Assembly: GCF_014836755.1 (NCBI RefSeq)
Contig: NZ_JACSQF010000005.1
Location: 169,293-227,401 of the forward strand
Direction of reading: 5' to 3'
DNA: 58,109 nt
Source of the DNA: Oerskovia merdavium
GTDB taxonomy: Bacteria; Actinomycetota; Actinomycetes; Actinomycetales; Cellulomonadaceae
Positions 4,843-50,058 of the stretch are shown piece after piece; position 1 is the stretch's first letter, and every line of letters begins with the position of its first letter. A model generated the notes under the pieces. The model did not search any database. It was not told where the DNA came from and saw only the letters and a program-made list of their open reading frames with translations. Position numbers and translations under genes: made by a program.

Positions 4843-4977
4843 ACCCCGGACACCCGTCCATCTGGCACCTGATAGTCGATACCCTGACAAGCCAGGGTCC
4901 ATTGACGGTACCGACGCGCACCAGAGCTTTGACCCTCCCATTCATCGACCGCCACGAACAAGACTGGTGATGACGCC

Positions 4978-5694
4978 ATGAGCACATCAAGGACCACACT
5001 CTGGGCGCGAGGACTCGTCGTCGCAGGGCTCGTGGGTGCGACGGCTCTCGTCGGCCCCGCGGCGAACGCTTCCAGCGAGACCCCCGCCCCGACCCCGACC
5101 ACCGGCGACTACGTCGAGACGACGCCGCCCCCGACGATCGACCTCACGGTTCTCCAGCCCGTGTGCGACGGCGACGTGCCCTATCTCGTGTACGACGTCG
5201 ACGTGACGGGCACGCCGAACGAGACCGTCACCATCACCTGGCTCAACCCGTCGGGCGAGAACGTCGTCCAGGCCGGGCTGCCCCTCTCCGGGCGCGTCCT
5301 GTGGCCCGGGGCCACCGTGAACGCCGCTGGCGAGCCCACGGGCTGGCCGGGCTGGGTGTTCGAGGACGGTGAATGGGTCGAGGGAGGCAGCTTCGGCTGG
5401 GTCCGCCCCACGGTCGACGTCCTGTTCCAGGTCAACCCTGAGACCACGGTCTCCGTGGCCTACCCGCCGTCCAGCCCGAACTGCAACACGAACCCGCCGG
5501 GCAAGACGACGCCTCCCCCGGGGACGACCGTCGACGGGAAGGTCACGACCGTGGCCAACGTCTCGGACTCCCAGGGCGGCCTTGCGGAGACCGGTGCCAC
5601 CGTCGGCAAGTTCGTCGGTATCGGCGCGGCCCTCCTGCTCGTCGGTGGCGGCCTCGTGCTCGTCGCCCGTCGCGGTCGCAAGGGCAACGCCTGA
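4978..5694 (+). CDS. LAXTG cell-wall-anchored surface protein (sortase substrate), small paralogue
   Basis: A 238-residue secreted protein. The signal peptide is about 1-31 (basic start, then GLVVAGLVGATALVGPAANA). It has a single extracellular module at about 58-170 and a Pro/Thr linker. The C-terminal sorting signal is LAETG (202-206), a hydrophobic helix, then the RRGRKGNA tail. LAXTG is the motif used by class E sortases of high-GC actinobacteria; no sortase is encoded here. The extracellular module is clearly homologous to the C-terminal module of the protein encoded at 46895-48373 (shared PYL-Y-V, LPL-GR-LWPGA, WPGW, VLFQVNP). I do not recognise a named domain. A strong terminator follows. 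Confidence 0.82.
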   Translation: MSTSRTTLWARGLVVAGLVGATALVGPAANASSETPAPTPTTGDYVETTPPPTIDLTVLQPVCDGDVPYLVYDVDVTGTPNETVTITWLNPSGENVVQAGLPLSGRVLWPGATVNAAGEPTGWPGWVFEDGEWVEGGSFGWVRPTVDVLFQVNPETTVSVAYPPSSPNCNTNPPGKTTPPPGTTVDGKVTTVANVSDSQGGLAETGATVGKFVGIGAALLLVGGGLVLVARRGRKGNA

Positions 5695-11732: not shown

Positions 11733-14700
11733 TCAGCGTCCGACGCGGTGTGCGAGCACTGCGAGCTCGACCCTCGAACGGACCCCGAGCTTGCGGAAGA
11801 CCCGCCCCAGGTGCACCTCGACGGTGCGCACCGACAGGTACAGCTGGTCCGCCGCCTCCCGGTTGGAGCCGCCCTGGACGACGAGGAGCGCGACGTCGAG
11901 CTCACGTTCGGTGAGCTCGTCGGCCCACCGTGCGCGCAGCTCGTCGAGAGCGTCGTCGGAGACGTCGCTCTCGCGGGCGGCGAGTCGTGGCCGCCCCAGG
12001 CCCGACGACGTCGCGGAGGTCCCCGAGGACGTCCCCCCGGGAGCGGCGTGCGTCGGGGCGCCGTGCCCAGGCCGCTCGGGTGGGGCGAGCGCCCCGAGAT
12101 GGGCGAGGACCGCGGCGAGCTCCTCCTGGGCCTGGCGCACCCAGGCCCATGCGCCGGACTGGGTCAGGAGCTCGACCGCCGACAGCAGGTGCTCGTGGGC
12201 CGCAGGAAGGTCCCCCCAGCGGATGAGCGCACGTCCCAGGCACAGCTCGGTGCGTCCGTGCTCGAAGGGCGACGCGATTCCCCGGCCCGCCGAGGCGACC
12301 GCGTCACGCAGGGCGATGGCGTCCTCCGGTCGGGCCAGCGCGATCTCTGCCCGCGCCAGGGTGGCGACCCGGTTGGCCGGCGAGAGGTCCTTGGCCTCGA
12401 CGCGCCGTCGGGCCAGTGCGCGTTCTGCAGCGTCCGGCCTGCCCGCGAGCACCCACGCCTCGACGTCGTCCATCCCGGGCAGGTGCAGCATGTGGGCGCA
12501 GTCGCGCCGGTCGGTCTCCGCGGCGAGCTCGAGCAGCGTGGCCGCCTGTGTGTGGTGCCGGGCGAACGAGGCACCGATGGCTCGATCGACGAGGAGGCCG
12601 AGCCGGACCGGCCGCGACGTCGGGCAGGAGCAGGTCTCCTCGAGCGCCGTGGCGACGGTGCCCACGCTGCCGTGGACCGCCATGTCGAGTCGCCGTGCGA
12701 CGGCGACCCCCGTCCCTGCGAACGGCAGGCCGACCGGAAGGCTGAAGGCCGCCTCCTCGAGCTCACGGCGGGCCTTGGTGATGTTCCCCGACCAGAAGTG
12801 GACGAGGACCTGCGTCAGGCGCAGGTGCGCCTCGACGTAGGGGGTCACGGCCCCCGACGGAGCGTCGAACCATCGCCCGCCGGAGCGGACCGGGGCGAGG
12901 TTGGCCATCGCGCTGGCCAGGGCCTGCCCGGCGACGTCCAGCGCGTCCTCGTCCGCCAGGGCGATCGCCCGGCTCACCTGCGCGTAGGCCTCCTGCTCGG
13001 CCGTGAGCCCGGAACCCGGGAGGTTCGCCTTCTTCCCCCGTTCACCCACCCCGTAGTTGGCGAGCCACGCACGCGTGACGTCGAGCCCGCCGACCCCTTG
13101 TGTACATCGCCGGGCCAGCCTCTTGGCGGCGTCGAACGCCTGGGAGGCGGCGACGCCGTCGCCACGCTCGGCGTGCAGGGTCGCCGCGCTCGTGAGGCCC
13201 CGGACCACGTCGCCGATCTCGCAGCCGCCGCTCGCTTCCCGCGGGTTGCCGTCGTGGTCGACACAGCAGGTGCAGGCGTCGTCGTTGTCGGCGAGAGCGA
13301 GGAAGGGGGCGATGACGTCGTCGGGCACCTGTCCCTGGACGTGCGTGAGCGCGACCACGAGCGGGCTGAGGATGCGCGCCGGGCTGACCCCGTCCTCGCA
13401 GCGCGCGGCCTTGCGCAGCCAGTCGGCCGCGTCGTGGACGTGGCCGGACTCGAGCGCGGCGGTGCCGGCGAGGACGAAGGCCTCGCCACGATCCGCTCCG
13501 GTGGCCTGGCTCGCTGCCTCGCGCGCGACCTCGTGCGCCCACACGACGTCGCCGCGGGCGAGCAGTCGCCGGGCGAGCGACACGAGTCCTGGGACCAGGG
13601 ACGGATCGCCCGCGAGGGTCGCCAGGGCCGTGTGCCAGGTCGCGATGTCGTCCTCGCCGACCGCGGTGTGGACCGTCGCCAGCCGCAGGTGCGCCGCCGT
13701 CCGGTCCGCGAGGCGGGCGTCACCGTGCACGAGCGACCGCACCCTCGGGTCGGTGAAGGCGAACCGGCCCGAGACCAGCGAGAGCTGGCCCGACAGCGGG
13801 CCGTCGAGGACCTCGTCGATGCTCAGGCCCGACGCCGCCAGCAGGACGTCGGTCCGCTCGACCACGGCGACGGCCGCGACGAGCAGCGCCCGACGCTCTT
13901 CAGGGGCCAGGTCGTCCAGCCGGTCGCCGATCAACGCCCGGACCGCAGGAACTGGCGGCAGAGGGTCGGGCAGGATCGTGGTACCGGCGAGCTGCTCGGT
14001 CGTGAGCAGGCGTGCCGTCTGGGCGATCGCGGCCGCGTTGCCCGCGAGCTGACGTGCGAGCCGGGCAGCCACGTGCGGCGCGACCGCCATCCGCTCCTCG
14101 ACCAGCAGCAGGTGCAGCGCTTCGGACGAACCGAGAGGCGTGAGCTCGCGGACCTCGATCGGGTAGGGAAGGGGTCGGTCGAACCCGCCGGGGACGGACG
14201 TCGCGAGGAGCACGAGCGAGGCACGACGTTGCGCGACGAGCCCGACGATCACGGCACGGCTGATCTCGTCGACGAGGTGGAGGTCGTCGGCCAGCAGGAC
14301 GATCGTCCGGTCTGCGGTCGCCTCGTCGAGGTACTCGGCGAGGGCGACCGCGCCGACCTCCGGCAGGTAGCCGTACTCCGGGTCCGCGACGTCGAGGGGC
14401 CGGACGAGACGGTCCGGCACGGCGTGCCCGGTGGCCTGGGCGACCTGGGAGACCAGGGAGCGCACCGCACTGCCGGCACGCTGCGGGCCGACGGCCTGCG
14501 CGACCCGCAGGATCAGCGGCGGGCGCGCGCCCGGCGACTCGTGGAGCGCCTCGTGCACGAGCTCGAGCGTCGTGCTCGCCCCCATGCCCGGTTCACCCGT
14601 CCAGACGAATGCGCCGCGCCCGTCGGCCACGGCCCCGAGGGCGATGTCGATCTCGGCCCGCCGGGAGGAAAGTCGCTCTGGCCGGTGCTCGGCGGACGCG

Positions 14701-14753
14701 CGGGACGTGCGCTCCTGCTCTGAGTTCAGGAAATCTTGCTTGCTGGCTGGCAT
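11733..14753 (-). CDS. Large LuxR-family transcriptional regulator with N-terminal ATPase-like domain
   Basis: A 1006-residue protein of the LAL type: an N-terminal P-loop-like region, a long helical, TPR-like middle, and a C-terminal LuxR helix-turn-helix. That C-terminal region is recognisable from LTERELDVALLVVQGGSNRE and TVEVHLGRVFRKLGVRSR in the last 70 residues. Such proteins usually sense sugars or oligomers through the middle part and activate nearby genes. The Walker A equivalent is GEPGMGAST (53-61), without the usual lysine, so ATP hydrolysis is doubtful; a Walker B-like IVLLADDLHL follows. Start: ATG 14753 behind GGGAGGG, preferred over one 19 codons upstream. Lying directly upstream of two chitinases, it is a natural candidate chitinase regulator (inference). 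Confidence 0.88.
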   Translation of the reverse strand: MPASKQDFLNSEQERTSRASAEHRPERLSSRRAEIDIALGAVADGRGAFVWTGEPGMGASTTLELVHEALHESPGARPPLILRVAQAVGPQRAGSAVRSLVSQVAQATGHAVPDRLVRPLDVADPEYGYLPEVGAVALAEYLDEATADRTIVLLADDLHLVDEISRAVIVGLVAQRRASLVLLATSVPGGFDRPLPYPIEVRELTPLGSSEALHLLLVEERMAVAPHVAARLARQLAGNAAAIAQTARLLTTEQLAGTTILPDPLPPVPAVRALIGDRLDDLAPEERRALLVAAVAVVERTDVLLAASGLSIDEVLDGPLSGQLSLVSGRFAFTDPRVRSLVHGDARLADRTAAHLRLATVHTAVGEDDIATWHTALATLAGDPSLVPGLVSLARRLLARGDVVWAHEVAREAASQATGADRGEAFVLAGTAALESGHVHDAADWLRKAARCEDGVSPARILSPLVVALTHVQGQVPDDVIAPFLALADNDDACTCCVDHDGNPREASGGCEIGDVVRGLTSAATLHAERGDGVAASQAFDAAKRLARRCTQGVGGLDVTRAWLANYGVGERGKKANLPGSGLTAEQEAYAQVSRAIALADEDALDVAGQALASAMANLAPVRSGGRWFDAPSGAVTPYVEAHLRLTQVLVHFWSGNITKARRELEEAAFSLPVGLPFAGTGVAVARRLDMAVHGSVGTVATALEETCSCPTSRPVRLGLLVDRAIGASFARHHTQAATLLELAAETDRRDCAHMLHLPGMDDVEAWVLAGRPDAAERALARRRVEAKDLSPANRVATLARAEIALARPEDAIALRDAVASAGRGIASPFEHGRTELCLGRALIRWGDLPAAHEHLLSAVELLTQSGAWAWVRQAQEELAAVLAHLGALAPPERPGHGAPTHAAPGGTSSGTSATSSGLGRPRLAARESDVSDDALDELRARWADELTERELDVALLVVQGGSNREAADQLYLSVRTVEVHLGRVFRKLGVRSRVELAVLAHRVGR

Positions 14754-14879
14754 GTCAGACCCTCCCGTCCGGAGCAACGATGGCCGGACGACTCTCAGGA
14801 ATGTTAACAACCCGACGTAAACTCGGGCATCCTGTCCCGTTACTCGTCAGTATCTTCGGCGACCACACCCGGAGGCGGG

Positions 14880-14908
14880 TTGCCGGGGCCTTCGACCAGG
14901 TCTATGGT
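14880..14908 (+). promoter_or_regulatory. Promoter upstream of the corA leader ORF
   Basis: TTGCCG (14880-14885), 17 bases, TATGGT (14903-14908). Transcripts from here would have roughly 385 bases of leader before the 100-residue membrane protein gene. The stretch 14754-15299 holds this promoter, the 21-codon ORF and no other recognisable gene. Confidence 0.45.
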
Positions 14909-14995
14909 GACCTCGTTCCTCCGTTCCCAGTGCGAAAAACGTCGACACCTCAGACGAGCACGGAACCAGAAGCAGATGAGAAGGAGGTGAGAGCG

Positions 14996-15061
14996 ATGCA
15001 GGACGGCACCGGTCATAGATCCCCGCACTGCGCGCTCGAGCCCCGCAGCCCTGCCCGCTGA
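14996..15061 (+). CDS. Small upstream ORF (21 codons) in the leader of the corA operon
   Basis: The ATG is preceded by AAGGAGGTGAGAG, almost perfectly complementary to the 16S rRNA 3' end and the best ribosome binding site in the window. The peptide starts MQDGTGHRSPHC and ends EPRSPAR. Such a strong site on so short an ORF, within a long leader of an operon for a putative Mg2+/Co2+ channel, suggests a regulatory leader peptide. The function is inference. Confidence 0.5.
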   Translation: MQDGTGHRSPHCALEPRSPAR

Positions 15062-15299
15062 CCTCCCGCTCAGCCCCGGCACGGCCCTCGGGTCACGGTC
15101 GCCAGTGCGCTCCATTGCACCGTTTCCCCCTCTCCGCCCAGGTCCTGGTCGCACCCCGCGACACCTCGGACCGCTGTGCTCCCCGCGTACCACCGGCGCC
15201 GCCGTGCGCCGTGACACGCCCGGGCACGACGGTCACGCTCCGCCCAGGACCAGGCGTCCGGTCGGCACCGTCGAGAGCACGGCGCCGGGAAGGACCACC

Positions 15300-43883: not shown

Positions 43884-45881
43884 CTACCCGAACGTGAACG
43901 TGAAGACCTGCATGCCCGCCGGGACCTCGAGCTCGACCGCCCCCTCGCTCGGCGCGTCCCCCTCGATCACCGGGTAGAGCGTCGGGTTCCCCGTGACCTC
44001 GACGTCCCGCCGCTCGACGACCTTCCCGTCCGCGTCGCGGACCGTCGCCACGACGGTGCCCTCGCCGCCCAGGACGGTGAAGACGTCGGTGCCCCGGTAG
44101 GCCAGCCGCACGCGGGCCCCGTCGGACACCGCGGTCGCTCCTTGGAAGTCGACGGCCCACGTGCCGCCCAGCGAGAACGTGTCGGGTGCCTGGTCCTGGG
44201 CGAGCGTGAAGGCCTGCTCCCCCGCGGCGTAGCGCGGCTCTCCCGCGTAGTTGCCGACCTTGCCGACCGAGAGGTAGGTCTCGGGGGTCGTCGCCCCGTC
44301 AGGAGTCCCGTCCTCGACCGAGGTCGCGCCCGGCAGGCGCACGCCCGGGTTCGCGTCCGCGAGCAGCTCGCGGATCAGCGCCTCGGTGTCCTCGTACCCG
44401 CCCTCGCCGAACCGGATGTGCCGCACGTTCCCGTCGGCGTCGACCAGGTACTGCGCGGGCCAGTAGCGGTTGCGGTACGCGGTCCAGGTCGCGTAGGAGT
44501 TGTCCTGCGCGACCGGGTAGGTCACGCCCAGGTCGTCGGCCCCCGCGACGACGTTGCGCGTCTCGCGCTCGAACGCGAACTCCGGCGTGTGCACCCCGAT
44601 GACCTCGAACCCCTCGCCCACGTCCTTGTACTGCTCGTACCAGGCGTCGACGTGCGGGATCGCGCGCTGGCAGTTGATGCAGGAGTAGGCCCAGAAGTCG
44701 ACGAGGACGACCTTGCCCCGCAGGTCGTCGAGCACGAGCGGCTGGTCGCCGGGGGTGTTGAACCACGTGTCGATCCCGCGCAGCGCGGGGGCCGGGCCGC
44801 AGTCCTCGAGCTCGGGCGCACCGTTCGAGCAGCTCGACAGCGCACGGTTCTCGTCCGTGACGATCCCGCCGAGGTCGAGCGCCTCGCGCACCGTCCCGGA
44901 CGCGTCGACGCGCTCCTGGAGGCCGCCCGTGTAGTCGGGCAGCGCGCGCTGGAGGTAGGCGGGCAGGTTGAACGCGAGCCCGACGGCGAGCGCGATCATG
45001 ACCACGCCGCCCGCCACGCGGATCCCGCGCGTGTGGCGCTGGAACGCCTTGACCCGCTCGGCCACCCGACGTCCCGCGAGCGCGAAGACCAGCAGCGGGA
45101 GCGCGGCGCCCACCGCGAACGACACCGTGAGGGCGACCGTCTCCGGTCCGATGTTCCCCGTCGCGCCCGCGACCGTGATGGCCGCGAGGACCGGTCCCGC
45201 GCACGGGACGTACAGGACTCCGAGGCCCAGGCCCAGCACGAACGCCCCGCGGTCCTGGCTGCGCGTCCCTCGTCGCGCACCGAGCGCCGCGATCCTCTGG
45301 AACGGTCGTTCGAGCACCTCCTCGAACCGCGGCACGATCATGCCCACGCCGATCACCGCGAGCAGCGTCAGCCCCACCCAGCGCAGGAGGTCCTGCGGCA
45401 GGCCGAGCGCCCCGAGGAGCAGCGAGCCCAGCAGCGTGAAGACGCTGAAGCTCACGACGAGCCCCGCGATCACGAGGTACGGGCGCCACGAGCGACGAGC
45501 GCCCCGACCCGCGGCACCCTGGGCGTCCGTGCCGCTCCCGGCCCGACGGCGCCGCTCGCCCTCTGCGCGAGGGGCGCCACGGTCGGCGGTCGGCCGGGCT
45601 ACCGTGACGACCTGACCGCGCGCGCCCACCGTCACGGCCCCGGGAGCCCCGGCGAAGAGCGCGGCGGTCGGGGCGCTCGGCGTGGCCTCCGCCGAGGGCG
45701 ACCGGACCGCGGTGGCGGCTCCGTCGTCGGGCCCGGTGGGCGCGGCGGAAGCTGTGGGTGCGGCGCCGCGGGCGCCCTGCACCCCGCCCGCGAAGAAGAT
45801 CACGGGAAGCATGGGAAGGATGCACGGCGAGATGCCGGTGATGAGGCCACCGATCAGGCCGATGAGCACGAGGGTTTCCAT
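43884..45881 (-). CDS. dipZ: DipZ-type CcdA/thioredoxin fusion
   Basis: A 665-residue membrane protein that carries reducing power across the membrane. The CcdA-like part has Cys20 in [11 protein letters not shown] and a second Cys in [12 protein letters not shown] long Ala/Pro/Gly/Arg-rich insert (about 37-130) separates helix 1 from helix 2. The external thioredoxin-like domain has CINC (401-404) in [14 protein letters not shown], and a C-terminal beta-rich domain follows, as in mycobacterial DipZ. The start codon lies seven bases after a SigK-like -10 (CCGAAC), so the message is probably leaderless. It is divergent from the fasciclin lipoprotein gene. Confidence 0.9.
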
Positions 45882-45888
45882 GGCCGGG

Positions 45889-45915
45889 GTTCGGCGCAGC
45901 GGCCCGCACGGATGG
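45889..45915 (-). promoter_or_regulatory. SigK-type promoter of dipZ
   Basis: On the minus strand CCATCC (45910-45915), 15 bases, CCGAAC (45889-45894). The dipZ ATG begins eight bases further on. Confidence 0.65.
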
Positions 45916-45962
45916 GTGGGCGGGACGTCGTGCCCCTGCGCACACCGCGCCGGAGTTCCGAC

Positions 45963-45989
45963 CCATCCGACCGGGAACCGGCTCCGAAC
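45963..45989 (+). promoter_or_regulatory. SigK-type promoter of the fasciclin gene
   Basis: CCATCC (45963-45968), 15 bases, CCGAAC (45984-45989): both boxes and the spacing are identical to the divergent dipZ promoter. The leader to the ATG at 46042 is about 45 bases. Confidence 0.65.
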
Positions 45990-46041
45990 CTCCTCCGAGA
46001 CGCCCCGCACCAGACGGGGCGACGACAACGAGGAGAGACCG

Positions 46042-46716
46042 ATGAACGTTCGAACCCGTACCTCGTACGCCGTGGTCGGTGCAGCGACCCTGGCGATCCT
46101 GGGCCTGTCGGCCTGCAGCTCCGACACCGGCTCGGGCAGCGACGACACGTCGAGCGCGGCCGAGACGACGACGCCCGGCGACGACATGTCCGAGGACGCC
46201 ATGACCCCCGAGGTCGACCCGGCAGCCAACCTCGTCGGTCCCGGCTGTGCCGCCTACGCCGAGCAGGTCCCCGACGGCGCCGGCTCCGTCACGGGCATGT
46301 CGACCGACCCCGTCGCGGTCGCGGCGTCCAACAACCCGCTGCTCACGACCCTCACGGCCGCGGTGAGCGGGCAGCTCAACCCCGACGTGAACCTGGTCGA
46401 CACCCTCAACGGCGGCGAGTTCACGGTGTTCGCGCCCGTCGACGACGCCTTCGCCAAGATCGACCCGGCGACCATCGAGAGCCTCAAGACCGACTCCGAC
46501 ACGCTGACCAAGATCCTCACCTACCACGTGGTCCCCGGACAGCTGACCCCGGACCAGGTCGTCGGCGAGCACGAGACCGTCGAGGGCGGGACCGTGACCG
46601 TCACGGGCTCGGGCGACGACCTCAAGGTCGACGACGCCGCGGTGATCTGCGGCGGTGTCATGACGCAGAACGCCACGGTCTACCTGATCGACACGGTCCT
46701 CATGCCGACCATGTGA
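46042..46716 (+). CDS. Fasciclin (FAS1) domain lipoprotein, MPT70/MPT83-like
   Basis: A 224-residue secreted lipoprotein. The signal peptide ends in lipobox LGLSAC (Cys at about 25), followed by a Ser/Thr/Asp-rich linker. One FAS1 domain (about 85-224) has [49 protein letters not shown] and [12 protein letters not shown]. It resembles the mycobacterial MPT70/MPT83 proteins, which are also encoded next to dipZ under SigK. GAGGAGAGACCG precedes the ATG. Two hairpins follow the stop. Confidence 0.92.
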
Positions 46717-46740
46717 CCCCCGACGCCGACCGTCGCGGTT

Positions 46741-46838
46741 GTCCCCGTGCCGCGGCGGCCGGCCCACCAGGAGATGCACGGGGACACGGACGAGGAGCCG
46801 GTCGCTCCGGACGGGATGCCCCGAGCGACCGGCTCCTC
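46741..46838. terminator. Two hairpins between convergent fasciclin and LAXTG genes
   Basis: A 10-bp stem (46741-46750 with 46776-46785) and a perfect 16-bp stem (46792-46807 with 46823-46838). Confidence 0.7.
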
Positions 46839-46894
46839 TCGTGCGCCCGGCCCTCAGGGGCGGACGGTCGTGCTGCGGTTCAGCGCGTCAGCGG

Positions 46895-48373
46895 TCAGCC
46901 GTTCGCCCTGCGACGCGCCCACACGAGCGCAGCGCCGCCACCGACGAGCAGGAGCGCGAGGAACCCGGCTGCTCCGGCCGTGGCTCCCGTCGCGGCGAGC
47001 GACGGACCGCTCGGCGCCTCGGCGCTCACGGGACCGGGTGCCGCAGCGACCGGCGGGTTGGCGCACGACGCCGTGCCCTCCGGGTAGCGGACCGTCGTGG
47101 AGTAGTCGGGGTTGACCTGGAACAGGACCTCGACGTCCGAGCGCGTCCACGCGAAGTTGCCGTCGGTCTCGACGTAGGTGCCGTCGGACTGACGCTCCCA
47201 GCCGGGCCAGGCACGGGGCTCGTCCGCGGAGGCACCCGGCCACAGGATCCTGCCGTCGAGAGGCAGCCCCTCGACCGTGTAGTCCTCACCCTCGCCGGGG
47301 TTCAGGAACGTGATGCTCAGGGGGCGGTCGCTGTCGGCCTCGTACCCCTCCGGCAGGAAGACCTCGTAGCCGAGGTAGGGCGTGTCGGCCTCGCAGACCG
47401 CGCCGATCTCACCGGGCGTCAGGACGCACTCCTGCGCGCCGAGCTCCGGGTCGATCAGGAACGACGCGCTCCTGCCGTCCTCGGCGAGCACGTACCCCGC
47501 GGACTCACCCAGAGCGACGCCGTCCCCGGCGTGCGCGACGATCGCGCCGTCGGTCCGCGCGTAGCTGATCTGCTCGGTGCTCTCGGGCAGGACGAAGCGC
47601 TCGTCGTCCGTGCCGCAGACCTCGAGGATCGTCGGTGCGACCGGGGGCACGAACGTCAGGGACGGCTCCTCGGGCTCCGGCGCGACAGGCGTCTCCGGCT
47701 CGGCCGGGGGCACGGTCTCCTCGGCGCACTCCGGGACCTCGACGAGGTCGTCGAGGTCGTGGTGCTTGGAGCCGGTCAGGACCCCGCCCAGCGCGGACTT
47801 CGGCGGAGTGATGGTCTCGGGCCAGACGAACGTCCCGTCCTGACGGATCCTGTCCTGCTGGACCGCCCACCCGTCCCCGCAGACCTCCCGCGGGAGGTCG
47901 GACGGGAAGGTGGTGTACCACTCGGTCCCCGGCTTGTGGTCGACGAGCGTCTGGGGTCCGGAGTTCTCCCATGCGGCAGGCTTCGCGGGGTCGTTCTTCT
48001 TGTAGACGTAGATGCCCACCTCGTTGCCCGACGTGGGTGCGGAGACGCACGGCGTGGTCTTTCCCTGCTGCGCGAAGTCGTACTTCTTGCCGTCCGAGGC
48101 ACGCACGTCGATCTCCCACGAGTGGGCGACCGACGAGTCGGGGAAGGTGTAGGAGGTCGAGTACGAGCGCTGGAAGGTCTCGTCCTTGACGACCTTTCCG
48201 TCGACCTTCACGGTGACGGAGTTGTCCTTGGCGGAGTAGGCCTTGAGCGAGACGTCGAGGCCCGTGCAGGTCGCGGAGACCTGCGGGGTGTGGGCGGAGG
48301 CGGGGGCCGCGGTGGCGACCAGTCCGCCGAGGGCGAGCAGCGAGGCTGCCGTGCTCGCCAGGAGCTTCTTCAC
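46895..48373 (-). CDS. LAXTG cell-wall-anchored surface protein, large paralogue
   Basis: A 492-residue secreted protein. The signal peptide is about 1-27 (KKLLASTAASLLALGGLVAT). An N-terminal beta-rich region (30-215) has several cysteines. A Pro/Glu linker (EPETPVAPEPEEP) and a short domain with Cys253 and Cys316 follow. The C-terminal module (about 326-438) is homologous to the whole extracellular part of the protein at 4978-5694. Then come LAATG (459-463), a hydrophobic helix and an RRRANG tail. The start is GTG 48373 with GGAAGG 14 bases upstream, rather far. The module is not one I can name. It is encoded just downstream of rskA on the same strand. Confidence 0.82.
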   Translation of the reverse strand: MKKLLASTAASLLALGGLVATAAPASAHTPQVSATCTGLDVSLKAYSAKDNSVTVKVDGKVVKDETFQRSYSTSYTFPDSSVAHSWEIDVRASDGKKYDFAQQGKTTPCVSAPTSGNEVGIYVYKKNDPAKPAAWENSGPQTLVDHKPGTEWYTTFPSDLPREVCGDGWAVQQDRIRQDGTFVWPETITPPKSALGGVLTGSKHHDLDDLVEVPECAEETVPPAEPETPVAPEPEEPSLTFVPPVAPTILEVCGTDDERFVLPESTEQISYARTDGAIVAHAGDGVALGESAGYVLAEDGRSASFLIDPELGAQECVLTPGEIGAVCEADTPYLGYEVFLPEGYEADSDRPLSITFLNPGEGEDYTVEGLPLDGRILWPGASADEPRAWPGWERQSDGTYVETDGNFAWTRSDVEVLFQVNPDYSTTVRYPEGTASCANPPVAAAPGPVSAEAPSGPSLAATGATAGAAGFLALLLVGGGAALVWARRRANG

Positions 48374-48444
48374 GGGTGGTGGATTCCTTCCGGGGTGATG
48401 CCGAGATGCGGCGTCGCACGCACGACACGGGGTGGGAACGTGTC

Positions 48445-48462
48445 GTATTGCATCACCAATAC
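48445..48462. promoter_or_regulatory. Inverted repeat GTATTG-N6-CAATAC upstream of the large LAXTG gene
   Basis: A 6-bp dyad in the locally AT-rich 48374-48568 stretch, 70-90 bases before the start. It may be an operator. No SigK-type boxes are present here. Confidence 0.35.
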
Positions 48463-48568
48463 CCAGACTTTGACAAACCCCGGTATACATCCGAAATCGG
48501 ACCAAGGAATTACCCGAGAGCGGGCATTGCGGCCGGAACTCGGGTCGAAAGTTATCCGAGATCGAGCA

Positions 48569-49375
48569 TCAGGTCTCGAGGATCACCAAAGGATCGCTGG
48601 TCGGCTGCGGAGACCCCCCGGCGGGCTCGAGCGTCACCGCGACCCCCGCACTCCCGGCCGCATCGACGAGCAGGGCCGCCGAGCCGTCCCGGGCGTCGAA
48701 CACCCCGGCCGAGACCATACCCTCACCCTCGACGAGCCAGAGCTGGTAGTCCTCGGCGGCACCCGCCTGCGGCAGGTCCGTGACGGAGAACAGCACCCGG
48801 TCACCCGAGACGAGCGCGCTCGCGTCCCCACCCCCGACCATCTCGCCCCGGACGATCTCCGCCGCCGGGTCGGCGAGCATCGAGGCCATGGCGTCGGCCT
48901 GCGTCTGGAGCCGGACCTGCTCCTGGCGGGCCTGGACGGCCAGCGTCGTCGGGACCGCTACGGCCGCGACCGCGGCGGCGACCGCGGCCACGACGACCCA
49001 CCGCCGGGGAGCGCGCGCCGGGCCCCCTGGGCGTGCGTCTCCGCGGCCTGCCCCGGGGGCCGCGACCTGCGGCGTCGACGCGACGCGCCCGAGCACCGCG
49101 TCCCGGAGCGAGGCAGGTGGGTCCGCGTCGACCGTGAACGCCGCGACCACCGCGCGGTGCTCGTCGAGCTCGCGGCGCGCGTCGGCGTCGGAGGCCAGCA
49201 GCCGTTCGACCACGCGGCGGTCCAGGTCGTCGACCGCGTCGAGCGCGTAGGCGGCGAGCAGGTCGCGCGGGTCGTCCGTGCGCGGACCTTCTCCGTCGGC
49301 GACCGGTCCGTCCACGCCACCACGCGACGTGGAAGAGCGCCCGGTGTCGCGGCCGTCGCCGGTGTCGTCAACCAC
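48569..49375 (-). CDS. rskA: Anti-sigma-K factor
   Basis: A 268-residue single-pass membrane protein. The cytoplasmic N-terminal anti-sigma domain has DPRDLLAAYALDAVDDLDRR at about 36-55. The membrane helix is at about 125-147 (VVVAAVAAAVAAVAVPTTLA). The extracellular RskA domain has FSVTDLPQAGAAEDYQLWLV and VAVTLEPAGGSPQPTSDPLV. RskA holds SigK until regulated proteolysis releases it. The GTG start overlaps the sigK stop by eight bases. Confidence 0.92.
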   Translation of the reverse strand: MVDDTGDGRDTGRSSTSRGGVDGPVADGEGPRTDDPRDLLAAYALDAVDDLDRRVVERLLASDADARRELDEHRAVVAAFTVDADPPASLRDAVLGRVASTPQVAAPGAGRGDARPGGPARAPRRWVVVAAVAAAVAAVAVPTTLAVQARQEQVRLQTQADAMASMLADPAAEIVRGEMVGGGDASALVSGDRVLFSVTDLPQAGAAEDYQLWLVEGEGMVSAGVFDARDGSAALLVDAAGSAGVAVTLEPAGGSPQPTSDPLVILET

Positions 49376-49943
49376 GGTTCACCCCCAAGCAGTCGCGCAG
49401 GCGGACGAGCCCGTCACGGATCCTCGACTTCACGGTCGGCACGGCCGCACCCAGCTCGAGCGCGACCTCGCGATACGTCAGACCGCCGAAGTAGGCCCGG
49501 ACGACCGACTCGCGCTGGGTCTCGGTCAGGCTCCCGAGGCACCGGCGCACGGCAGCCGACTCGAGCAGCTGCTCGACCTCCTCGGCGACGACGTCGTGGC
49601 CTCCCCCGGCGAACCTGCCGTCGACGTCCTTCTGGTCCCGGACCCGGCGGGACTGCTCGGCCCGCACCCGGTCCACCGCTCGCCGTCGGGCCATCGTGAC
49701 GACCCAGGTCCGGGCCGAACCCCGGGAGGCGTCGAAACGCACCGCCGTCTGCCACACCTCGATCATCACCTCCTGGGTCACCTCGGCCGCGTGGTCGTGG
49801 TCGCGCAGCACGCCCAGGGCCGTGCCGAACACGGCCGGCGCCAGGGCGTCGTACACCGGCGCGAACGCAGCCGGATCACCCTCGGCGCACGCGGCGAGCG
49901 CGGCATCGAGAGCATCGGGCTCGCTCGTCCTCACGGGTGGCAC
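49368..49943 (-). CDS. sigK: ECF sigma factor SigK
   Basis: About 191 residues. Region 2 is seen from LDAALAACAEGDPAAFAPVY, then HAAEVTQEVMIEVWQTAVRF and ARTWVVTMARRRAVDRVRAEQ. Region 4 is SLTETQRESVVRAYFGGLTY, REVALELGAAVPTVKSRIRD. The similarity to mycobacterial SigK is strong, and RskA follows immediately. The start is uncertain: GTG 49943 or 49934 are the best downstream choices. An in-frame ATG at 50030 lies one base after the promoter -10 box and so upstream of the expected transcript start. Confidence 0.88.
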   Translation of the reverse strand: MPPVRTSEPDALDAALAACAEGDPAAFAPVYDALAPAVFGTALGVLRDHDHAAEVTQEVMIEVWQTAVRFDASRGSARTWVVTMARRRAVDRVRAEQSRRVRDQKDVDGRFAGGGHDVVAEEVEQLLESAAVRRCLGSLTETQRESVVRAYFGGLTYREVALELGAAVPTVKSRIRDGLVRLRDCLGVNRG

Positions 49944-50031
49944 CCGACCAGTCTGCCCCAGGCTCCCCACCGCGGCGCACGGGCGGGACGTCCGCGGGTG
50001 CACAGCATCCGCGACGGCTGAGGCACCCATG

Positions 50032-50058
50032 GTTCGTCGCGGACGGGGTCGCGGATGG
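50032..50058 (-). promoter_or_regulatory. SigK-type promoter of sigK (autoregulation)
   Basis: On the minus strand CCATCC (50053-50058), 15 bases, ACGAAC (50032-50037). It has the same spacing as the dipZ and fasciclin promoters, with one base different. Confidence 0.6.

Follow-up and report, generated by a model that had tools for sequence, protein, structure and literature searches.

A compact candidate SigK regulon with three matching promoters in Oerskovia merdavium

Can a genus outside the mycobacteria hold a SigK regulon, with sigma factor, anti-sigma factor and targets, in one locus? The question is raised by a cluster of Oerskovia merdavium within a stretch of 58,109 nucleotides (contig NZ_JACSQF010000005.1, positions 169,293 to 227,401; hereafter the window), in which dipZ, a fasciclin gene (fas) and sigK are each preceded by a promoter-like box of the form CCATCC-N15-MCGAAC. 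A sequence-only reading of the window had seen in it a SigK regulon, and this is supported in large part by our analysis: the locus is very probably a self-contained SigK-RskA regulon comprising sigK-rskA, a fasciclin lipoprotein and dipZ, with promoters of its own. The support comes from the family assignment of the proteins, the boxes in seven of seven Oerskovia genomes, the specificity of their spacing and the association of box and gene in 81 loci, and also from the boxes being kept under a changed gene order in Cellulosimicrobium and being present in a locus of mycobacterial type (L217). That SigK recognizes promoters of the form CCATCC-N15-CGAA is suggested by this association.

The gene identities were confirmed by family and structure matches (coordinates in Table 1). 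DipZ matches Pfam DsbD_TM, AhpC-TSA and Thioredoxin_10, its top PDB match is DipZ 5cyy (391 bits), and Cys 20, 227, 401 and 404 are all present, two in the membrane part and two forming the thioredoxin CxxC, as in a DipZ (CcdA-TlpA fusion). Across the loci, 19 of 30 DipZ rows span all four positions and have Cys at each, the other 11 being gapped because only the first domain of each match was retained. Fas has the lipobox Cys, single FAS1 domain and two FAS1 cysteines of an MPT83/MPT70-type protein and aligns to MPT70 (1nyo) with 217 bits, 107 of 161 residues identical (66%) and both FAS1 cysteines, Cys69 and Cys203, matched; all three cysteines occur in 40 of 42 Fas rows, and the remaining two rows are gapped. 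The closest PDB chain to SigK is 4nqw_A (144.6 bits), to whose Cys133/Cys183 its Cys135 and Cys185 are aligned, and this pair is kept in 77 of 82 SigK rows. RskA, encoded directly after sigK (with an 8-base overlap if it starts at 49375), matches RskA_C (85.5 bits, cut-off 29.4) and the anti-sigma model NF052375 (161.8 bits, residues 39-262), and its residues 38-96 weakly match the RskA chain of 4nqw (E 0.024). A SigK-type site precedes each of the sigK operon, fas and dipZ, the layout of a mycobacterial-type regulon, and promoters, sigma factor, anti-sigma factor and targets had rightly been placed within about 6 kb, the cluster with the dipZ gene measuring 6.2 kb and the three boxes spanning 4.2 kb.

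The window contains exactly three matches to CCATCC-N15-MCGAAC, with 0.03 expected by chance and none of 100 shuffles having three. Counted from the end of each box, the start codon begins at base 8 for dipZ (ATG), 53 for fas (ATG) and 89 for sigK (GTG), so that the boxes have the place and orientation claimed for them, and dipZ and fas indeed share one divergent region with identical boxes (CCATCC-N15-CCGAAC). A search of the whole genome (4,486,858 bases) gave four exact matches and none to the reversed pattern; three lie in the cluster, and the fourth (C43:114-140) lies near the start of its contig inside a frame that we take, by eye from its sequence, to be aldo-keto reductase-like, broken in this genome and open over 276 aa in a relative (L016). 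Allowing one mismatch raises the number to 62 (the 4 exact ones and 58 more; reversed control 14), and because such matches are numerous we relied on the exact form.

The same box recurs at other sigK loci. We compared the best 80 sigK loci from named genomes together with the window (81 loci, 1.54 Mb). The strict box, which leaves the base before CGAA free, was counted in them 122 times with a spacer of 15 and one to five times at each spacing from 10 to 14 and from 16 to 20; three altered patterns gave 0, 1 and 1 matches. Since the loci are related to each other, the 122 boxes are not independent events. Behind them stand sigK (42), fas (31), dipZ (23) and lip (11), 107 in all, and 15 lie elsewhere, including those of a frame-split dipZ (L072), a lip gene whose start was misplaced in the scan (L074) and one fas (L124); the 79 rskA genes all lack an upstream box. 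Here lip denotes a lipoprotein gene of about 430 codons directly before sigK in twelve loci without fas and dipZ (L071, L074, L076, L079, L080, L081, L084, L091, L095, L104, L113 and L116); the scan found a box before 11 of the 12 and, once its start had been re-read, L074 had one as well. In L119 lip lies on the other strand with a weaker box match. Within the genus, all seven Oerskovia genomes (that of the window and six others searched) have fas and dipZ as a divergent pair, with a sigK box at a distance of about 4.1 kb. In their alignment the hexamers are invariant blocks and the spacers drift, as does the sequence between the two divergent boxes, which also varies in length; the conserved blocks of this region are the boxes and the fas leader.

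The boxes also permit a prediction of the transcript start. When identical boxes were collapsed, and with the start signature left out of the search for boxes, base 7 after the box was a pyrimidine in 30/30 fas, 11/11 lip and 48/50 sigK boxes; the next base, base 8, was a purine in 29/30, 11/11 and 50/50, respectively. A pyrimidine followed by a purine is the usual signature of a transcript start, and the near-constancy of this pair leads us to predict that transcription begins at the purine, base 8. For dipZ we scored 29 loci with a pattern that tolerated other bases at three positions of the -35 and at the first of the -10 and allowed spacers of 15 or 16; in all 29, base 8 is the A of the ATG, including L073, where an in-frame GTG lies nearer the box and the ATG is placed as in the other loci. 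The thirtieth dipZ, frame-split in L072, has a box too, and the strict box precedes dipZ in 20 of 30 loci if G is disallowed before CGAA, or in 23 plus L072 with any base there. In the fas-dipZ-fas locus L217 the boxes are of the same kind as in the window, with CAATCC as the dipZ -35 and the GTG of dipZ at base 8, and in L218 (dipZ-sigK-rskA) CCGAAT is followed by 7 bases and ATG, the spacing seen elsewhere. Because the start codon falls on base 8, the dipZ message is predicted to be leaderless, and a purine 8 bases after the box that in dipZ is the first base of the start codon makes for a sharp prediction. The fas message would have a leader; perfect inverted repeats of at least 5 bp occur in 30 of 33 fas leaders, with sequences that differ between genera, but as the mean fold z is just -0.89 (below -1 in 17 of 33) the hairpin is offered as a side remark. 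In the assembly of Cellulomonas xylanilytica, the dipZ of L072 is broken into two frames (13369-15235).

The alternative that survives best, itself improbable, holds that the boxes are real and that dipZ and fas are transcribed chiefly from other promoters, SigK adding to their output. In its favor, sigK has a second conserved element: CA[GC]ACT-N6/7-GTG stands in frame directly before the gene in 38 of 47 loci (the window and L048-L093), with letter shuffles giving a mean of 0.02 and a maximum of 1, and among loci of the same group outside this count L115 has the element and L104, L113 and L116 have CACAAT-N6-ATG. Judged on the -10 alone, this element looks like that of a primary sigma factor, with the start codon placed at +1. 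It fits the putative promoter just before sigK in M. tuberculosis, described in the available part of PMC7509140 as not regulated by SigK. Against the alternative, no conserved blocks other than the boxes and the fas leader mark the divergent region in Oerskovia, and only 7 bases separate the dipZ box from the ATG, so that there is no room for a leader from this box.

It is quite unlikely that another extracytoplasmic function (ECF) sigma factor reads the boxes, their closeness to sigK being incidental. The genome encodes many ECF-like factors (of the candidates scored, 15 match the SigK model at E ≤ 0.001), but the boxes are commoner in genomes that have SigK: in two sets of 24 genomes, hand-chosen and not randomly drawn from the family list of 150, the YCGAAC form matched 87 times in 23 SigK-bearing genomes (reversed control 1), versus 24 times in 14 genomes without SigK (reversed control 2). 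One of the latter (G048) may lack SigK only in its assembly, because its box precedes a lip fragment at a contig end. Moreover, the boxes lie upstream of sigK or of the gene that precedes it, and where the gene order differs they still accompany fas and dipZ.

For the module in Oerskovia, recent horizontal acquisition from mycobacteria is very improbable. The presence of the module is patchy, with 74 of 150 family genomes passing the SigK cut-off and 85 scoring at least 217 bits (the next score is 185), and the identity of Fas to MPT70 is high; but the SigK tree (82 rows, SigK only) mostly follows families, the -10 ends mostly in C within the family, as in the window, and frequently in T elsewhere (L217, L218 and several non-family loci), and the locus is conserved in every Oerskovia genome. 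On this tree dipZ with fas requires 7 changes, compared with a shuffled mean of 24.5, and lip 5, compared with 12.3, which indicates, on a largely family-ordered tree, that the fas, dipZ and lip partners have changed a few times. The description of the module as ancient is backed by its breadth and the mostly family-ordered SigK tree, but fas and dipZ have been gained or lost several times. The further claim that it is mobile in order stands: in five Cellulosimicrobium loci the order is sigK-rskA-fas-dipZ in one direction with the boxes kept beside their genes, and in the remaining dipZ-bearing loci fas is directed away from dipZ. Full-length dipZ occurs in 30 of the 81 loci, mostly in Cellulomonadaceae and Promicromonosporaceae, and never without fas (30/30). 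Finally, an origin of the boxes by chance or coding constraint, given that CCATCC and CGAAC are common in GC-rich DNA, that the dipZ/fas region lies partly under open frames, that a coding remnant holds one of the four exact matches in the genome and that 58 more appear with one mismatch (control 14), has negligible probability and is ruled out by the empty exact control, the spacing peak at 15 and the seven-genome footprint, in which the boxes stay invariant within a drifting intergenic region.

Several observations weigh against a self-contained SigK-RskA regulon built on these boxes. The strict box lies directly upstream of about half of the 82 sigK genes (39-42); 12 further sigK genes sit behind a boxed lip gene, and the rest have neither arrangement. 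In one scan 8 of 42 fas genes lacked a box, among them L124, whose box was missed there, and L115, whose -35 is changed. One SigK genome (G045) has no box match, and 14 of the 24 SigK-negative genomes have at least one. The -35 of dipZ in L218 is not CCATCC, although the -10 and the spacing to ATG are kept, and outside the group or family most loci lack the second sigK element. In addition, light induces mpk83 and mpk70 but not dipZ, according to the available part of PMC9861118, so that the three need not move together.

If the locus is nevertheless a SigK-RskA regulon, RskA in the membrane would hold SigK until an envelope signal, probably redox-linked through Cys135/Cys185, frees it. Freed SigK would take RNA polymerase to promoters of the form AC-CCATCC-N15-CCGAAC, and transcription would begin 8 bases further on, at the purine. 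Through the sigK box, sigK-rskA would be under positive feedback, beneath which the second element would supply a basal leaderless message; from the fas box would come a message encoding an MPT83-like surface lipoprotein, with a hairpin and a strong ribosome site in its leader, and from the dipZ box a leaderless one for a membrane thiol reductase. DipZ probably acts on disulphides outside the cytoplasm, among them the one that the FAS1 domain is expected to contain. For M. tuberculosis, the available part of PMC7509140 states that the SigK-RskA complex is stabilised when the cysteine pair is oxidised, that reduction frees SigK and that full activity requires both cysteines. The thiol reductase gene being a constant target, a feedback between the thiol state of the envelope and SigK is suggested.

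The cluster resembles the systems of the M. tuberculosis complex and M. kansasii, so far as the available parts of PMC7509140, PMC10540498 and PMC9861118 describe them, in the SigK cysteine pair, RskA, FAS1 proteins and DipZ, and, as read here from sequence, in SigK sites before each target, autoregulation and a putative non-SigK promoter before sigK. The mycobacterial targets, as in the regulon of M. bovis, lie in two loci (PMC10540498, in part) with two FAS1 genes, one arrangement being the mpk83-dipZ-mpk70 triad (PMC9861118, in part), whereas here three promoters and one FAS1 gene share a 6-kb locus. The cskE-sigK-dipZ island of Corynebacterium pseudotuberculosis likewise unites sigK, an anti-sigma factor and dipZ, but the available part of its gene list shows no fas (PMC3078919). 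SigK-RskA pairs of the same type occur in Yersinia enterocolitica, of a neighbouring ECF family (ECF19 versus ECF18), and in Nocardia, with the cysteines lost; the available part of PMC7509140 describes no link to fas or dipZ for either. As the conservation of the SigK site across Actinobacteria is also reported there, the novelty of the module is smaller than the sequence-only reading had implied, even if its SigK regulon stands; the predicted leaderless dipZ and second sigK element go beyond it.

To judge from sequence, this is a real, compact and conserved SigK regulon of a known kind, some features of which we did not find described. Our literature search was limited, most subscription journals lying outside it; titles and the openings of abstracts gave no case from Micrococcales, and we found no description of a leaderless dipZ, the second sigK element, exchangeable lipoproteins, the extra targets or full-length dipZ in many non-mycobacterial species. 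Oerskovia is not known as a professional pathogen, and the dipZ-bearing genera are mainly soil or environmental, some Cellulosimicrobium and Oerskovia being occasional opportunists. The 30 of 81 sigK loci with full-length dipZ argue against dipZ as a pathogen trait; the available part of PMC3078919, citing Veyrier 2008, calls it exclusive to pathogenic bacteria. According to the discussion of PMC7509140, a source available in part, it is not known what sets off the SigK cascade of mycobacteria; a locus holding the whole regulon with three exact non-coding promoter matches is a clean place to seek signal and purpose.

The box also precedes other genes. In the 24 SigK genomes, with coding-looking boxes excluded by eye, it stands before a CHRD protein in 8 (7 above the Pfam cut-off; L137 below, at 21.2 bits), before a DUF4383 protein in 6, all above the cut-off, and before two DUF1775 proteins; the frame read in L014 matches DUF4383. 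Two protein kinases, two molybdopterin oxidoreductases and one sortase have their start codon at base 8. A wider regulon of this kind was rejected for Oerskovia, as neither CHRD nor DUF4383 matched in the seven genomes at E ≤ 0.001; the absence of DUF4383 is convincing, with scores of 94-109 bits where it is present, but a weak CHRD relative may have been missed, CHRD proteins scoring just 21-34 bits. A DUF4383 protein was found in O. flava. We lean slightly towards a broader reading, in which SigK serves an old programme of envelope maintenance and not virulence, membrane enzymes (DipZ and, in other families, the molybdopterin oxidoreductase, protein kinase and sortase) come from leaderless messages in which transcription starts at the start codon, surface lipoproteins come from messages with a leader and a strong ribosome site, and the lipoprotein partner, fas or lip, was exchanged several times with promoter and start geometry constant. 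Lip is modelled as all-helical with two repeats (mean predicted local distance difference test score, pLDDT, 76.9); its best PDB match (E 0.029) is not convincing, one member scanned matched no Pfam family, and two members gave no NCBIfam match over cut-off.

Table 1. Features of the candidate SigK regulon and, in the last five rows, genes of other loci that start at base 8 after a SigK-type box
Feature	Position	Strand	Remarks
dipZ	43884..45881	-	665 aa; CcdA-like membrane part, thioredoxin and C-terminal domain
SigK-type promoter of dipZ	45889..45915	-	CCATCC-N15-CCGAAC; predicted +1 is A of ATG at 45881 (leaderless)
SigK-type promoter of fas	45963..45989	+	CCATCC-N15-CCGAAC; predicted +1 is G at 45997
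7-bp inverted repeat	46001..46021	+	CGCCCCG/CGGGGCG; predicted fas leader, near predicted 5' end
fas	46042..46716	+	MPT83/MPT70-like FAS1 lipoprotein, 224 aa; lipobox and one Fasciclin domain
LAXTG surface protein gene	46895..48373	-	inside the cluster, without a SigK box
Perfect inverted repeat	48445..48462		GTATTG-N6-CAATAC; upstream of LAXTG gene; identical in 7/7 Oerskovia
rskA	48569..49375	-	anti-sigma-K factor; start codon not certain
sigK	49368..49943	-	GTG start; NF007228 230.7 bits, cut-off 226
Second sigK promoter-like element	49941..49955	-	CAGACT-N6-GTG directly before sigK GTG; predicted leaderless start at 49943
SigK-type promoter of sigK-rskA	50032..50058	-	CCATCC-N15-ACGAAC; predicted +1 is G at 50024
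Kinase, oxidoreductase or sortase gene	L100 11420
Kinase, oxidoreductase or sortase gene	L102 11383
Kinase, oxidoreductase or sortase gene	L105 11414
Kinase, oxidoreductase or sortase gene	L122 11426
Kinase, oxidoreductase or sortase gene	L101 7634

Unlike the mycobacterial regulon, the cluster encloses a LAXTG surface protein gene found only in Oerskovia. The statement that it has no SigK promoter was borne out, none being found within 350 bases upstream with spacers of 14-17 and at most one mismatch. Its full-length relatives were confined to Oerskovia among the loci compared and were not found in O. flava; the protein matches no Pfam or NCBIfam model at E 0.001, and its fold model is too poor for use (mean pLDDT 33.6). 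The exact GTATTG-N6-CAATAC repeat upstream, which among 218 loci occurs only in the nine from Oerskovia, is probably a separate operator of another regulator. As scans of 46600-48700 found neither a sigma-70 consensus nor a terminator, the gene may be reached by read-through from rskA. At 4933-5691 of the window (+ strand) lies a second member of this family, an open frame akin to one portion of the LAXTG protein, with a signal-peptide-like start of its own and an LAETG sorting signal.

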